Source: Thermosulfuriphilus ammonigenes | Lineage (GTDB): Bacteria; Desulfobacterota; Thermodesulfobacteria; Thermodesulfobacteriales; ST65 | Length of the DNA stretch: 64,000 nucleotides | Assembly (NCBI RefSeq): GCF_011207455.1 | Contig: NZ_CP048877.1 | Location: forward strand, 550,576 to 614,575 | Direction: 5' to 3' | Notes under the pieces: generated by a model | The model's input: only the letters and a program-made list of their open reading frames with translations | Told to the model about the DNA's origin: nothing | Database searches by the model: none | Program-made: the position numbers and the translations under genes | Part shown: piece by piece, positions 19,246 to 30,402 of the stretch | Layout: every line of letters starts with the position of its first letter | Numbering within the stretch: position 1 is the stretch's first letter

Positions 19246-19731
19246 CTACCACTTTCGATAAGGAAGGAATTTGCCTTCTAGGGTGATCACCACCCGATCT
19301 CCGGCCGGATCAGGCTTCTTCCGGATATCAATACTGAAGTCAATGGCGCTCATTATCCCGTCGCCGAACTCTTCATGAATCACGGCCTTAATCGCCGGAC
19401 CATAGACCTGAAGAATCTCGTAGAAGCGATAAACCGTAGGGTCACGAGGGATATCTTCCAGGAGTCTTCCCCGATAAGGAGGCCGCTGAATACAGGCTAC
19501 CACCTCTTCATCCAGACCAAGGATCTCCTGAAGGCGGCGAGCCTCCTCTTCAGAGGCGGTAGCTTGACCATAGAAAAGGGCAGCAACCCAGACCTTATCC
19601 CGTCCGAGTTGCCGGCCAAGCTCTTCAAAGGTAAGACCCTTTTCTTCCTTGGCGGCCAGAAGACGGTTTATCCAGAGACGACGGCGACAGCCGTGATGAT
19701 GGCCTTGATGAGACTGAGTGGAACAACACAT
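19246..19731 (-). CDS. cynS: Cyanase (cyanate hydratase) inside the nif operon
   Basis: The 161-residue protein matches cyanase along most of its length, in the branch carrying [24 protein letters not shown] and [11 protein letters not shown]. The catalytic residues R102, E105 and S128 correspond to E. coli R96, E99 and S122. Cyanase converts cyanate and bicarbonate to CO2 and carbamate, which decays to ammonia. The start ATG has AGGAGG seven bases upstream. The first 15 residues are atypical, rich in Cys and His (C2, C3, H8, H11-H13, C15), and may bind metal. It lies 11 bases after nifE and 67 before nifN on the same strand. No carbonic anhydrase or cyanate transporter gene is adjacent. Confidence 0.93.
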
Positions 19732-24996: not shown

Positions 24997-25821
<825 letters not shown>

Positions 25822-25869
25822 CTAGTCTGACCTCCTTTGGCTTAAGATTTCCGTTTTGCCAGACGCCTG

Positions 25870-25886
25870 TGGCAAGCCCTGTGCCA
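25870..25886 (-). promoter_or_regulatory. Sigma-54 promoter of the nifH operon
   Basis: Reading the minus strand from 25886 to 25870 gives TGGCACAGGGCTTGCC, nearly the sigma-54 consensus TGGCAC-N5-TTGCA. The GG (-24) and GC (-12) are correctly spaced. A start near 25860 would give a leader of about 40 bases before nifH ATG at 25821. The region is also partly palindromic, but the plus-strand reading is a poorer match. Confidence 0.85.
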
Positions 25887-25955
25887 AATCCGGTCAGAGT
25901 TATCTAAAGTCTGTTAGTTAACGTCTATTTTTGACATCTCTTTTGGCAGAGAACA

Positions 25956-25972
25956 GTCAGAGAAAATCTGAC
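25956..25972. promoter_or_regulatory. Candidate NifA-type enhancer: inverted repeat GTCAGA-N5-TCTGAC
   Basis: GTCAGA (25956-25961) and TCTGAC (25967-25972) are perfect inverted arms separated by GAAAA. The hexamer also occurs singly at 25826, 25893 and 26021, and the copy at 26021-26031 repeats the 11 bases of the right arm in reverse complement. The centre lies about 100 bases upstream of the inferred nifH start and about 60 upstream of the inferred nifV start. The classical NifA site TGT-N10-ACA was not found in this gap, so this repeat is the best candidate for activator binding. Confidence 0.5.
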
Positions 25973-25999
25973 AATAGTGGCCTTATCGTTCAATTAAAT

Positions 26000-26015
26000 T
26001 GGGGCAAAGGTTGCA
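26000..26015 (+). promoter_or_regulatory. Sigma-54 promoter of nifV-nifA
   Basis: TGGGGCAAAGGTTGCA matches the -24/-12 consensus at GG and GC and has a perfect TTGCA -12 element. Two bases of the -24 box differ. Transcription should start near 26026, upstream of the nifV ATG at 26091. This also argues against the in-frame ATG at 26019 as the nifV start, since that codon would not be in the transcript. Confidence 0.7.
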
Positions 26016-26090
26016 AAAATGTCAGATTTTCAGGGAACTGTCTTCTGGAATCTATTTTGCTTTTTATTTAGGACGGAGGCGGATGGAGAG

Positions 26091-27221
26091 ATGCTCCTAG
26101 ACACTACTCTTAGAGAAGGAGAACAACGCTTTGGAGTCTATTTTAGCCCGGAGATCAAACTCGGTCTCCTAGAAAGGCTGGCCCGCCTGGGGGTGGAAGA
26201 GATAGAGCTGGGAGTGGCCAGTCCGGACAAAGAGCTGGAGAAGCTCCTTACGGCCGCCAGCAGGCTCCAGGTCCGGGTCAGTATCTGGGCCCGGCTCCGG
26301 GAGGAGGATCTCTACTTGACAAAAGAGTTGGGAGTGAGTCGGGCCAACTTCGGGTTGCCGGTCTCCCTTGATCATCTTCAGAGAAGGCTAAGAATCGGCC
26401 CCCAGGAGGCCCTCAAGAGGATAAAAAAATTGATTTCCCAGGCCAGTCGGGTCATCCCTTATGTCTCCCTCGGTCTTGAAACCGCCAGTCAGGCAGAGCC
26501 TGACTTTCTTCTTAAAGCCGCCGAGACGGCCATTGAATCCGGGGCCAAAAGGATCAGGATCTCCGATACTCTGGGAATATTGAATCCCCTGGAGACAGCG
26601 ACCATCATCAGAAGGCTGCGGGAAAGGATTCCCGCAGCCGAATTGGCCTTCCATGGTCACAATGACTTCGGCCTGGCCACGGCCAACGCTATCGCCGCCC
26701 TGGAGGCCGGGGCTAGGTGGGTAGATGTATCTGTTTTAGGACTGGGCGAGAGGGCCGGCATAGCCGCCCTGGAAGAGGTGGTCGCCTATCTGTATTTTCG
26801 GAGAAAAAAGACCTCCTACCACCTCGAAAACCTCGGTGAACTGTGCCGCTTTGTGGCCTGGCACGCCAGGTGCCCCATCCCGGAGCACAAACCCATAATT
26901 GGACGGGGGCTCTTTCTCTGCGAGACAGGGCTCCATGTCCACGGCCTGGCCCAGGCCCCCGAACTTTACGAACCCTTCCCTCCCGAAAAGATCGGCCTAA
27001 AACGACGTTTGGCCCTGGGCAAAAAGAGCGGCCGGGCCGCTGTAAGACTCAAACTTAAACAGATGGGGATATCCGTGCCGGATGAGGCCCTGGATGGTCT
27101 GGTCAGGGCCATTCGCCAGGTCTCCCGGCTTAAAGAGCGCCCCCTAACCGAGGCAGAAATCCATCAGATCGTCGAGGACCAGAAGATATGGCCGAACAAA
27201 AAGATTTTTACAAAAATGTAA
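26091..27221 (+). CDS. nifV: Homocitrate synthase (NifV-like)
   Basis: The roughly 376-residue DRE-TIM metallolyase-like protein has the conserved DTTLREGEQ at its very start and HGHNDFG later, both typical of homocitrate and isopropylmalate synthases. It would condense acetyl-CoA with 2-oxoglutarate to supply homocitrate for FeMo-co. ATG 26091 is chosen because the catalytic motif follows immediately and the inferred sigma-54 start lies downstream of the alternative ATG at 26019. NifV rather than LeuA is supported by the nif context and length. nifA overlaps its end. Confidence 0.9.
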
Positions 27222-28816
27222 ACAAAAAATATCCAATCAACACCAAAAATGTAAAATCGCTCGATGCCCTGGAGCTGGAGGTCCTTTACGCTATCTCCGA
27301 GGTCATAAGCGATGTCTTGGAGCTCGATCGGGCCCTAAGAAGGGTTCTGAGAATCCTCTCCGAGACCCTGGACATGGAGAGGGCCACCATCACCCTGCTT
27401 GACGAAGAATCGGGGAGGCTGGTCATCAGGGCCTCCCATGGTCTCTCGCCCCAGGAGGAGCAAAGAGGCATCTATGCCATCGGCGAGGGTGTCACCGGAC
27501 AGGTTTTTGCCACCGGCGAGCCCTGCGTGGTTCCCGATGTTCGCTCTGAGCCCCTATTTCTTAACCGAACCGGGGCCCGAGCAGTGGCCAAAGAGAGGCT
27601 TTCGTTTATCGCTGTTCCCATCACCCTTAAAAGGCACCCCATTGGAGTCCTGTCGGTGGACAAACTCTTTGGCAAAGACGTTGATCCGGCCGAAGATGTA
27701 AAATTCCTAAAGATCGTGGCCACCCTCATTGCCCACTTTGTCAGCCTGAATCAACAGGTAGCCGCCAGAGAAAAACTCTTAAGACAGGACAACCTGAACC
27801 TCCGCCGAGAGCTAAAAAGCCGCTTTCAGCGTCTTTTCTGGCACAGCCAGAGCCCGGTCATGCAGAGGACCCTTGAGATGGTCCGCAAGGTGGCCCCCAC
27901 CAAGGCCACCGTGCTTCTTCTGGGAGAATCCGGGACGGGAAAGACCATGACAGCCCGGCTCATCCACGAGCTCTCTCCCCGAGCGGGGAAGCCCTTTGTC
28001 AAGATAAACTGCGCCGCCCTGCCCGAAAACCTCCTTGAGGCCGAGCTTTTTGGCTATGAGAAGGGGGCCTTCACCGGAGCGGTGACCTCAAAGAGCGGTC
28101 GTCTGGAAGAGGCCAACGGGGGCACGGTGTTTCTAGACGAAATCGGAGAGCTGCCCCTCTCCCTCCAGGCCAAACTTCTGCGGTTCATCCAGGAAAGGGA
28201 GTTTGAAAGGCTGGGGAGCACCAAAACAAAAGAGATAGATGTCCGTCTCATCGCTGCCACCAATCGCGACCTGGAAGAGGCCGTGGCCAGAGGTGAATTT
28301 CGCTCCGATCTCTACTTTCGATTGAGCGTCTTTCCCTTAGAGCTTCCCCCCTTAAGGAAGCGCCCTGAAGACATCCCCCTGCTTCTTAACTTCTTTTGTG
28401 AGCGGGCCTCCCAGGATTACGGGCGGAAGATCATTCTCAGCCAGGAGGCCACAGAGCGACTGGTCCATTATTCCTGGCCGGGGAACATCCGAGAGATGGA
28501 AAATATCATTGAGCGGCTGGCTATAGTCTGCGAGAAGGTCCCCATTGCCCCGGAAGACATCGAGCCCTTCCTACAGACCGACCACTTAGATCAGCCCTCT
28601 TCAGAGGAAGAGTTGCCGAACAAGGAGAGCCACTCCCTTAAAGAGATGGAGAAAAGGGAGATCCTTTTGGCCCTCAAACGCAACCAGTGGGTCCTCACCT
28701 GGGCCGCCAAAGATCTGGGGCTCACCCTCCGTCAACTCCGATACCGCATCCAAAAACTGGGGCTTCAGCCATCCATTCCCCTTCGTCGGGGCCGCCCCCC
28801 TTTAAGAAAAAAATAA
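27188..28816 (+). CDS. nifA: Sigma-54-dependent transcriptional activator NifA
   Basis: The 542-residue enhancer-binding protein has an N-terminal GAF domain (about residues 45-190), an AAA+ domain with Walker A GESGTGKT (246-253) and the sigma-54 contact loop GAFTGA (293-298), and a C-terminal helix-turn-helix near 505-525. It lacks a response-regulator receiver domain, as expected for NifA. It overlaps nifV by 34 bases and is cotranscribed with it, giving a likely positive feedback loop. Its targets should include nifH, nifV and possibly amtB. Confidence 0.92.
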
Positions 28817-28974
28817 ATCTTTACTTTTTTGTAACATACCCACCAAAACAATCTAACATCTTTGTAAAGTTTTCCTGACATACCAGAAATATTCCGGGGC
28901 TAGAATGTTTTTTCACCAGGCTTGTTTTTCGCAACCTGCTAATATTACGTCTGTTTTTGCAAAGGACACGTTTG

Positions 28975-28990
28975 TGGCACAGGTCTTGAT
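28975..28990 (+). promoter_or_regulatory. Probable sigma-54 promoter of amtB-glnB
   Basis: TGGCACAGGTCTTGAT fits the -24 element perfectly and the spacing is right, but the -12 dinucleotide is GA instead of GC. The amtB ATG is at 29029. Ammonium transporter operons are commonly sigma-54 controlled, which supports the call despite the altered base. The 28817-29028 gap holds no gene that I can support. Confidence 0.6.
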
Positions 28991-29028
28991 TATGAAGGAA
29001 GCAAGAAATCATGCAGAGGAGGTTTATC

Positions 29029-30402
29029 ATGAAGAGGCGTCGTTTGTGGACTCTGGTGGTTTGGGGCTCGCTGGCCCTCTCGGGATCGCTGGCCTGGGCC
29101 GGTGATCCCACGGGAGCCCAGACTTTAAAGTCCGACCCCGGGCTCCCGGTAGATTACGTCTGGGTTCTGATCTGCGGCTTTATGGTCATGTTCATGCAGG
29201 CGGGTTTTGCCTGTGTGGAGGCCGGTTTCTGCCGGGCTAAAAACGTCACCAACCTCTTTACCAAAAATGTCATGGATTTTGTCGTCGGTTCCCTGGCCTT
29301 CTGGGCCCTTGGCTACGGAATAATGATGGGCACCGACTGGAAGGGGCTCTTGGGAACCTCCGGTTTTTTTCTGAGTGGAGATGGCTATGACGTTGGTAAC
29401 TACCTGACTTTCTTCTGGCAGATGGTCTTTGCCGCCACCGCGGCGACCATCGTCTCCGGAGCGGTGGCCGAGCGACTCAAGTTCCAGGCCTATCTTGTCT
29501 ATTCGGCGGTGATCACCCTCTTTATCTATCCTATTTATGGCCACTGGGTCTGGGGAGGGGGCTGGCTTTCTAAACTCCCTTACGGTCTGGGGCACCTCGA
29601 CTTTGCCGGCTCCGGTGTTGTCCACGCCGTAGGGGGTTTCATTGGTCTGGCGGGAGCCATTGTTCTCGGCCCTCGCTACGGAAAGTTTGACAAAAACGGC
29701 AGACCTCGGGCCATCCCTGGTCACAGCCTGCCCATGGCCGCCCTGGGAACCTTTATCCTCTGGTTTGGCTGGTACGGATTTAACCCCGGCTCCACCTTTT
29801 CTGCACACCACCTGAGGATCTCGGTGATCGCCGTAAACACCACCCTGGCGGCCTCAGCGGCCTCCCTTACAGCCCTGCTCATCATTTTGCTAAAGACCAG
29901 GCGTTTTGATCTGGGCATGGCCCTCAACGGGGCCCTGGCCGGACTGGTGGCCATCACCGCCCCCTGTGCCTGGGTTGAGGCCTGGGCGGCAGCGGTTATC
30001 GGCATAGTGGCCGGATTCATTGTTGTCGCCGGTGTCTATCTCCTCGAGGGTCTTAAGATAGACGATCCGGTAGGGGCGGTTCCCGTCCATGGTTTCAATG
30101 GTATCTGGGGTCTTCTGGCGGTAGGAATTTTTGCCGACGGCACCTATGGCAACTACTCCATAGAGCCTCCCTTCGTCAAAGGGCTTCTCTATGGTGGTGG
30201 TGTTGATCAGTTCATCTCCCAGCTAATCGGGGCGGGAGCCTTAATTCTCTGGGCCTTTGGCTGCGGCCTGGTGCTCTTCAAGGTGCTCGATAGCCTCATG
30301 GGCATTCGGGTTGAGCCCAAAGAGGAGCTCATGGGTCTTGATATTATCGAACACGGGACTCCCGCTTATCCCGAGTTCTACACCATGAATAGCCAGACAT
30401 AA
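29029..30402 (+). CDS. amtB: Ammonium transporter AmtB
   Basis: The ammonium channel is about 457 residues long. It begins at ATG 29029, with GGAGG six bases upstream, and opens with a signal peptide ending near LAWA. The mature part has eleven helices and conserved Amt motifs such as DFAGSGVVH, with the pore His, and CAWVEAWAAAVIG. It allows ammonium entry under nitrogen limitation and is gated by the PII protein encoded next door. A hairpin occupies the amtB-glnB gap. Confidence 0.97.
   Translation: MKRRRLWTLVVWGSLALSGSLAWAGDPTGAQTLKSDPGLPVDYVWVLICGFMVMFMQAGFACVEAGFCRAKNVTNLFTKNVMDFVVGSLAFWALGYGIMMGTDWKGLLGTSGFFLSGDGYDVGNYLTFFWQMVFAATAATIVSGAVAERLKFQAYLVYSAVITLFIYPIYGHWVWGGGWLSKLPYGLGHLDFAGSGVVHAVGGFIGLAGAIVLGPRYGKFDKNGRPRAIPGHSLPMAALGTFILWFGWYGFNPGSTFSAHHLRISVIAVNTTLAASAASLTALLIILLKTRRFDLGMALNGALAGLVAITAPCAWVEAWAAAVIGIVAGFIVVAGVYLLEGLKIDDPVGAVPVHGFNGIWGLLAVGIFADGTYGNYSIEPPFVKGLLYGGGVDQFISQLIGAGALILWAFGCGLVLFKVLDSLMGIRVEPKEELMGLDIIEHGTPAYPEFYTMNSQT

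Follow-up and report, generated by a model that had tools for sequence, protein, structure and literature searches.

A candidate NifA-type activator site of tandem 9-bp units in the divergent nifH-nifV control region of Thermosulfuriphilus ammonigenes

The 269-base gap at 25822-26090, from which nifH (minus strand) and nifV-nifA (plus strand) diverge, is probably (about 60%, in our estimate) a sigma-54 nif control region with an activator, most likely NifA, acting at 26000-26026. The gap lies in a stretch of 64,000 nucleotides (hereafter the window), which is part of a single chromosome of 2,287,345 bases; NifA matches place the genome near Thermosulfurimonas and Thermodesulfatator. We compared it with relatives (G001-G040) that belong to the same order, none of them to the same family. 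The initial annotation had proposed that a recurrent hexamer in the gap, GTCAGA/TCTGAC, marks an enhancer specific to this lineage. A non-canonical site conserved in the order, tied to one clade of NifA proteins and including the hexamer copy at 26021, does exist, but the hexamer does not define it. The genes of the locus and the elements of the gap that carry this reading are the following.

24997-25821, minus strand: nifH, first gene of the divergent nif operon (TIGR01287, 459.6 bits, exceeding the cut-off of 394.35)
25871-25886, minus strand: nifH sigma-54 -24/-12 promoter-like element TGGCACAGGGCTTGCC; 10 of 10 relatives whose gap is complete have an element of this kind facing nifH
26007-26026, minus strand: conserved activator-type site with units TCTGACATT TTTGCAACC, located with a profile trained on relatives; includes GTCAGA copy 5
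26046-26061, plus strand: nifV sigma-54 -24/-12 promoter-like element TGGAATCTATTTTGCT; counterpart in 10 of 11 relatives scanned
26091-27221, plus strand: nifV, homocitrate synthase-like (TIGR02660, 337 bits, under the curated cut-off of 462.9); start set by relatives
27188-28816, plus strand: nifA (TIGR01817, 516.9 bits, just under the cut-off of 528.85), with Pfam GAF, sigma-54 AAA+ and Fis-type HTH domains

The gap thus holds divergent sigma-54 promoters and, as had been claimed, lacks TGT-N10-ACA. Among the 11 relatives scanned, the nifV element had no match in G001, and a sigma-70 promoter scan gave no match. The listed nifV open reading frame, starting at 26019, is over-extended: the relatives' proteins align from the ATG at 26091, so the GTCAGA copy at 26021 is probably non-coding. 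Moreover, the nifV -24 element is downstream of 26019, and a message from the nifV promoter therefore cannot begin with the ATG at that position. Elsewhere in the nif run, a cyanase gene, cynS (19246-19731, minus strand; above cut-off), is located between nifE and a nifN/K-like gene.

In order to find a conserved element, we used 21 promoters from relatives, namely 8 nifH-nifV gaps and 13 amtB upstreams, to train a motif with the source genome excluded, by a one-site-per-promoter EM with a second-order background; an initial EM without site limits had yielded only T-runs and was replaced. Left out of the training were the two T. ammonigenes promoters, the G005 gap (no adjacent nifH), the cut G032 gap and, as near-duplicates, both G001 promoters, the G016 gap and one of the two G016 amtB promoters. 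The outcome was TTTGTnAgTTTTGTaAgTTT, a T-rich tandem direct repeat (TTTGTnAGT)x2 of 9-bp units; the site fraction was estimated at 0.99, which equals the ceiling imposed on it. When both strands of the window were scored with this profile, rank 1 went to 26026-26007 on the minus strand (TCTGACATTTTTGCAACCTT), with a score of 15.1 that was equalled by 0.2% of 1,000 shuffles of the gap (P 0.002). A third unit, TTTGCCCCA, extends the site to 26000. We define the tandem site of the tailed-NifA clade, described below, as two TTTGTnAGT-like units 9 bp apart, and the T. ammonigenes site has this form. The check that had been suggested, conservation in relatives' gaps, hence separates two things: the hexamer is without conservation, while the element around 26021 is conserved.

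The two promoter classes support one another in one direction. A profile built from the 13 amtB promoters only had its best gap match at 26008-26027 (P 0.004, rank 2 in the 64 kb) and recovered 5 of the 8 relatives' nifH-nifV gaps at P ≤0.05; training on the gaps only converged on the sigma-54 element and recovered 0 of the 13 amtB promoters. Independently of any profile, TTTG-N5-TTTG occurs 8 times in the 8 relatives' gaps (0.6 expected) and 7 times in the 13 amtB promoters of relatives (0.4 expected), and was found 0 times in 13 nifH upstreams outside the tailed clade, a set from which L196 and L187 (near-duplicates) and L108 and L009 (coding upstream) were omitted. Spacings of N9 (6 versus 0.5 expected) and N18 (4 versus 0.6) between TTTG words are also enriched in the 8 gaps. 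Between the site and the nifH -24 element there are 83-127 bp in 10 relatives and 120 bp in T. ammonigenes, where the nifV -24 is separated from the site by only 19 bp; for amtB the corresponding distance is 59-137 bp in 15 promoters of relatives and 103 bp in the window. In one tailed genome, G005, the profile fails both at the separate nifH (P 0.90) and upstream of nifV; by eye, the tandem units at its nifH are 10 bp apart. The nifH of G005 is on a different contig from nifV-nifA (L119, L093), and a tRNA-like sequence was seen by eye upstream of its nifV.

The hexamer itself does occur five times in the gap, as the initial annotation had stated, at 25826 (-), 25893 (+), 25956 (+), 25967 (-) and 26021 (+). 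The perfect inverted repeat GTCAGA-N5-TCTGAC is equally real. An exact repeat at 26021-26031 also exists, although it is 12 bp long and inverted, pairing 25962-25973 with 26020-26031.

25826-25831, minus strand: GTCAGA copy 1, abutting the nifH Shine-Dalgarno sequence AGGAGGTCAGA (by eye)
25893-25898, plus strand: GTCAGA copy 2, separated by 6 bases from the -24 element of nifH
25956-25972, no strand assigned: palindrome GTCAGA-N5-TCTGAC (copies 3 and 4), unexplained by the conserved motif
26021-26026, plus strand: GTCAGA copy 5, reverse complement of the first unit of the conserved site

The four copies other than the one at 26021 are outside the conserved element, and the best match of the relative-trained profile touching the palindrome scores only 1.3. 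As a conserved enhancer word GTCAGA fails, being present in 0 of 12 relatives' gap sequences (10 complete, G005 without adjacent nifH, and G032 cut). Across the genome, GTCAGA-N0-30-TCTGAC was found at 5 places (reversed control, 1): one further copy with the 5-bp spacer is inside a 214-codon open frame and three wider-spaced versions are all inside ORFs, and the palindrome was dropped as a regulon-wide operator on account of these four.

A first-order model of the 269-bp gap predicts about 0.14 copies of the hexamer; among 20,000 simulations at least three copies arose in 5 and five copies in none. This word was picked with the sequence already in view; asked more fairly, a non-low-complexity hexamer of any kind has five copies in 18 of 5,000 simulations (P 0.0036) and also in 25 of 709 overlapping real 269-bp segments of the same 64 kb. 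With low-complexity words allowed, some hexamer reached five copies in 139 of 2,000 simulations. GTCAGA is over-used across the whole 64 kb (48 found, 27.5 expected), and outside the cluster no 206-bp span of the window has more than two copies.

The best-surviving alternative is that the other four copies are due to chance, or are leftovers of a recombination that placed a foreign-lineage nifH operon beside the resident nifV-nifA. The T. ammonigenes NifH falls among NifHs of genomes not belonging to the order (L106-L113), with 83% identity to that of G061, versus 67-70% over the full length to NifHs of the order; the NifA is of the order's type and the nifV-nifA arrangement is common to the order. 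The nifH operon may thus have been replaced beside a resident nifV-nifA, judging from these sequence groupings, and such a replacement might account for the lack of a counterpart to the palindrome in relatives. The absence of the word from the relatives' gaps also favors this explanation; however, it leaves the conserved site at 26007-26026 unexplained, and even so the word is unusually dense. We regard it as a serious possibility, though one less probable than the activator reading.

The activator reading of 26000-26026 may extend to amtB, which follows nifA and is itself followed by a P-II gene.

28852-28871, plus strand: TCTAACATCTTTGTAAAGTT, related to the conserved site and 103 bp upstream of the -24 of amtB (by itself it scores 7.2, P 0.10)
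28975-28990, plus strand: sigma-54-like promoter of amtB, TGGCACAGGTCTTGAT
29011-30402, plus strand: amtB, ammonium transporter (TIGR00836, 462.4 bits, cut-off exceeded)

The local nifH-nifV and amtB sites have the word TCTRACATYTTTGYAA in common. With up to two mismatches it has 13 matches in the genome (the two seeds and 11 others; reversed control, 5), and with up to one mismatch 4: the seeds, one at 1815030 inside a 420-aa ORF, and one upstream of a second amtB. This last match is 116 bp upstream of a gene that also has a sigma-54 promoter, and reads as the dyad TCTTAC-AAAAAT-GTAAGA. A third amtB has a two-mismatch match, also 116 bp upstream, and a sigma-54 pattern search found nothing there. 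A related word is therefore present upstream of all three amtB genes found in the T. ammonigenes genome. The relative-trained profile gave unconvincing values at the same three upstreams (P 0.10, 0.29 and 0.12). TGT-N23-ACA occurs in 14 of 16 amtB upstreams, that of the window included; TGT-N14-ACA, initially suggested by amtB promoters, gave way to the 9-bp repeat.

We also searched whole genomes with a calibrated profile, R1, built from 20 of the 21 training sites (G016b omitted) and scoring up to 150 first-look candidates per genome. Ranks 1 and 2 went to amtB and the nifH-nifV gap in G021 and G023, which had contributed promoters to the training set. In G003 amtB was rank 1 and nifH-nifV was not among the matches listed; in G011 neither was among them. 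In G076, which is outside the training set, rank 1 was the nifH-nifA gap, the best match reported there (E 0.25). R1 found nothing in G061 and a single match at E 8 in G092, and no match was reported in T. ammonigenes at E up to 10. Given this last result and the amtB P values above, the T. ammonigenes sites appear divergent from those of the order. A regulon including molybdate genes was considered and dropped: the G011 match is inside the signal-peptide codons of a modA-like ORF, and the G003 match (L208, 1501-1520), a tandem site, touches the start of a modE-like ORF, which is too near for an enhancer of this ORF as drawn. Two nif-type amtB copies occur in G016 (L139 and L166), with site-like words scoring 18.2 and 10.0 and sigma-54-like elements.

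The candidate reader is encoded next to the site. The product of nifA belongs to the NifA family, with GAF, sigma-54 AAA+ and Fis-type HTH domains and nif linkage, and falls into a clade that combines a recognition-helix arginine with an AT-hook-like [RK]GRP tail. T. ammonigenes and 10 relatives with readable C-termini carry the helix RQLRYR and the tail RGRP (KGRP in G023); the C-terminus of G001 was read by eye from DNA. We call the tail only AT-hook-like because its Pfam AT_hook scores (12.7 bits in G003 and 14.3 in G076) stay under the gathering score of 17.4; the T. ammonigenes tail gave no AT_hook match in the Pfam search. A midpoint-rooted tree unites the tailed NifAs in one clade (0.997), T. 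ammonigenes lying outside the rest.

A NifA search listed 65 matches in 64 of 395 genomes, of which the best 30 were taken to loci (8 tailed, 22 untailed), and L170 and L076 brought the untailed loci to 24; C-termini of G018, G020 and G008, read separately, have no tail. Upstream of nifA at the 24 untailed loci (11 with a NifH match) the tandem profile scores at most 9.4, and 11 nifH upstreams outside the clade, scanned directly, reach at most 10.8, the highest (L112) adjoining the start codon. In G076, from a different family and outside the training, NifA shares this helix and tail, and the nifH upstream has tandem units (four by eye, score 25.3). The NifA of G076 nests inside the order, so the cluster was probably transferred and is not a fully independent case. 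The NifH of G076 (L168) also groups with the order, and the nif cassette was likely transferred together with its enhancer.

Taken together, these patterns suggest that the gap serves as a divergent nif control region driven by sigma-54, in which an enhancer-binding protein, most likely the NifA encoded behind nifV, would bind the T-rich element at 26000-26026 (minus strand; units TCTGACATT TTTGCAACC TTTGCCCCA). The bound activator would loop to activate sigma-54 polymerase at nifH, and may also act on nifV, whose -24 is so close. Both the adjacent NifA as reader and the activation itself are likely on this sequence evidence. Counting against NifA, site-like words are found upstream of amtB in G031 (a training promoter) and G040 (outside training, P <0.005), two MAGs (90 and 64% complete) in which a NifA ortholog was not found, and a second NifA-like protein may therefore read amtB sites.

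Such a protein could also be the reader in the nif gap, as a different nitrogen-responsive enhancer-binding protein, e.g. the NifA-like paralog at G000:C1:83069-84571, which has a different helix (LRILNYKI). Paralogs with LRILNYK or LRVLNYK helices were read in six genomes of the order, and the G040 amtB word scores 15.9. However, G061 and G068 have similar paralogs (L174 and L173) and nifH upstreams without the tandem motif (-4.9 and 8.1), and of 13 more distant amtB upstreams, all outside the training and taken from members of the order that lack a tailed NifA, only that of G040 reaches P 0.05. A reader other than NifA is thus somewhat unlikely.

A less probable explanation is that a single regulator uses all five GTCAGA copies as half-sites, in which case the palindrome would be a second lineage-specific NifA site with everted half-sites. 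The dyad upstream of the second amtB makes GTMAGA a plausible half-site, the exact 12-bp inverted copy connects the palindrome with the 26021 site, and five copies of one word are unusual. Against this, the other copies have no partner at 6-bp spacing (by eye), one overlaps the Shine-Dalgarno region and another flanks the -24, the word is missing from the relatives' gaps, and some complex hexamer occurs five times in 25 of 709 overlapping 269-bp segments of the window. Finally, reading the palindrome as a transcription terminator or RNA element is highly improbable and was dropped, for although a terminator-like scan flags 25972-25956 (minus strand), this is one match versus a shuffle average of 0.4, the stem has 6 pairs and a weak T tail, the palindrome is between and upstream of both divergent promoters, and no Rfam match was found at the gathering score.

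The preferred reading, a NifA-type activator at 26000-26026, differs in several respects from known nif control sites. The consensus of the NifA upstream activator sequence is given as TGT-N10-ACA, with a typical promoter distance, in PMC7294313, which also gives TAC-N6-GTA for AnfA and GTAC-N6-GTAC for VnfA. The excerpt of PMC4911364 describes a nif locus in Thermosulfurimonas and does not mention control sites, that of PMC12316311 concerns sigma-54 regulons, and among the titles and abstracts that searches of open-access literature brought up, subscription papers being outside the scope, none describes these sites. The T. ammonigenes site resembles a canonical NifA site in being upstream of a sigma-54 nif promoter, within about 150 bp of it (120 bp from the nifH -24), and in having a GAF-AAA+-HTH activator as its proposed reader. 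It differs in the dyad: TGT-N10-ACA, absent from this gap and thus ruled out as its site, occurs in 0 of 16 amtB upstreams and 1 of 13 nifH-nifV sequences, that of T. ammonigenes included. Enhancers of nif genes are usually sought with this consensus; if our reading is true, such searches overlook the control sites of an order of thermophilic autotrophs.

For their molybdenum nif genes, some further members of the phylum (L106-L113 and L186-L194) seem to rely on sites of the AnfA type, with TAC-N6-GTA at nifH promoters and no excess of TGT-N10-ACA. In the 13 nifH upstreams outside the clade, TAC-N6-GTA occurs 9 times (0.3 expected), in 7 sequences; 5 of the 9 matches are in the 10 sequences for which the NifA tail was read (not G079, G075 and G086). 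The T. ammonigenes gap has no exact TAC-N6-GTA, its site reading TGC-N6-GTC and departing at 2 of 6 bases, and relatives of the tailed clade have direct 9-bp repeats, with exact TAC-N6-GTA 0 times in the 21 promoters. The site upstream of the second amtB, TCTTAC-N6-GTAAGA, matches AnfA/VnfA sites by eye in its GTA half-site and 6-bp spacing. We tentatively propose that a NifA subfamily may have changed its DNA reading, the helix arginine and [RK]GRP tail going with tandem direct 9-bp repeats in place of the NifA/AnfA palindromes, and T. ammonigenes, sister to the rest, possibly retaining an intermediate, dyad-like site. If true, this would be a natural case of a sigma-54 activator shifting from inverted to direct repeats alongside the gain of a tail on its DNA-binding domain, and a domain of about 60 residues together with short DNA fragments would suffice to test it. 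A predicted nitrogenase regulator of the same kind is DVUA0143 of Desulfovibrionales, described as AnfA/VnfA-like and with a candidate motif in the excerpt of PMC4641369, where the letters of the motif are not given.
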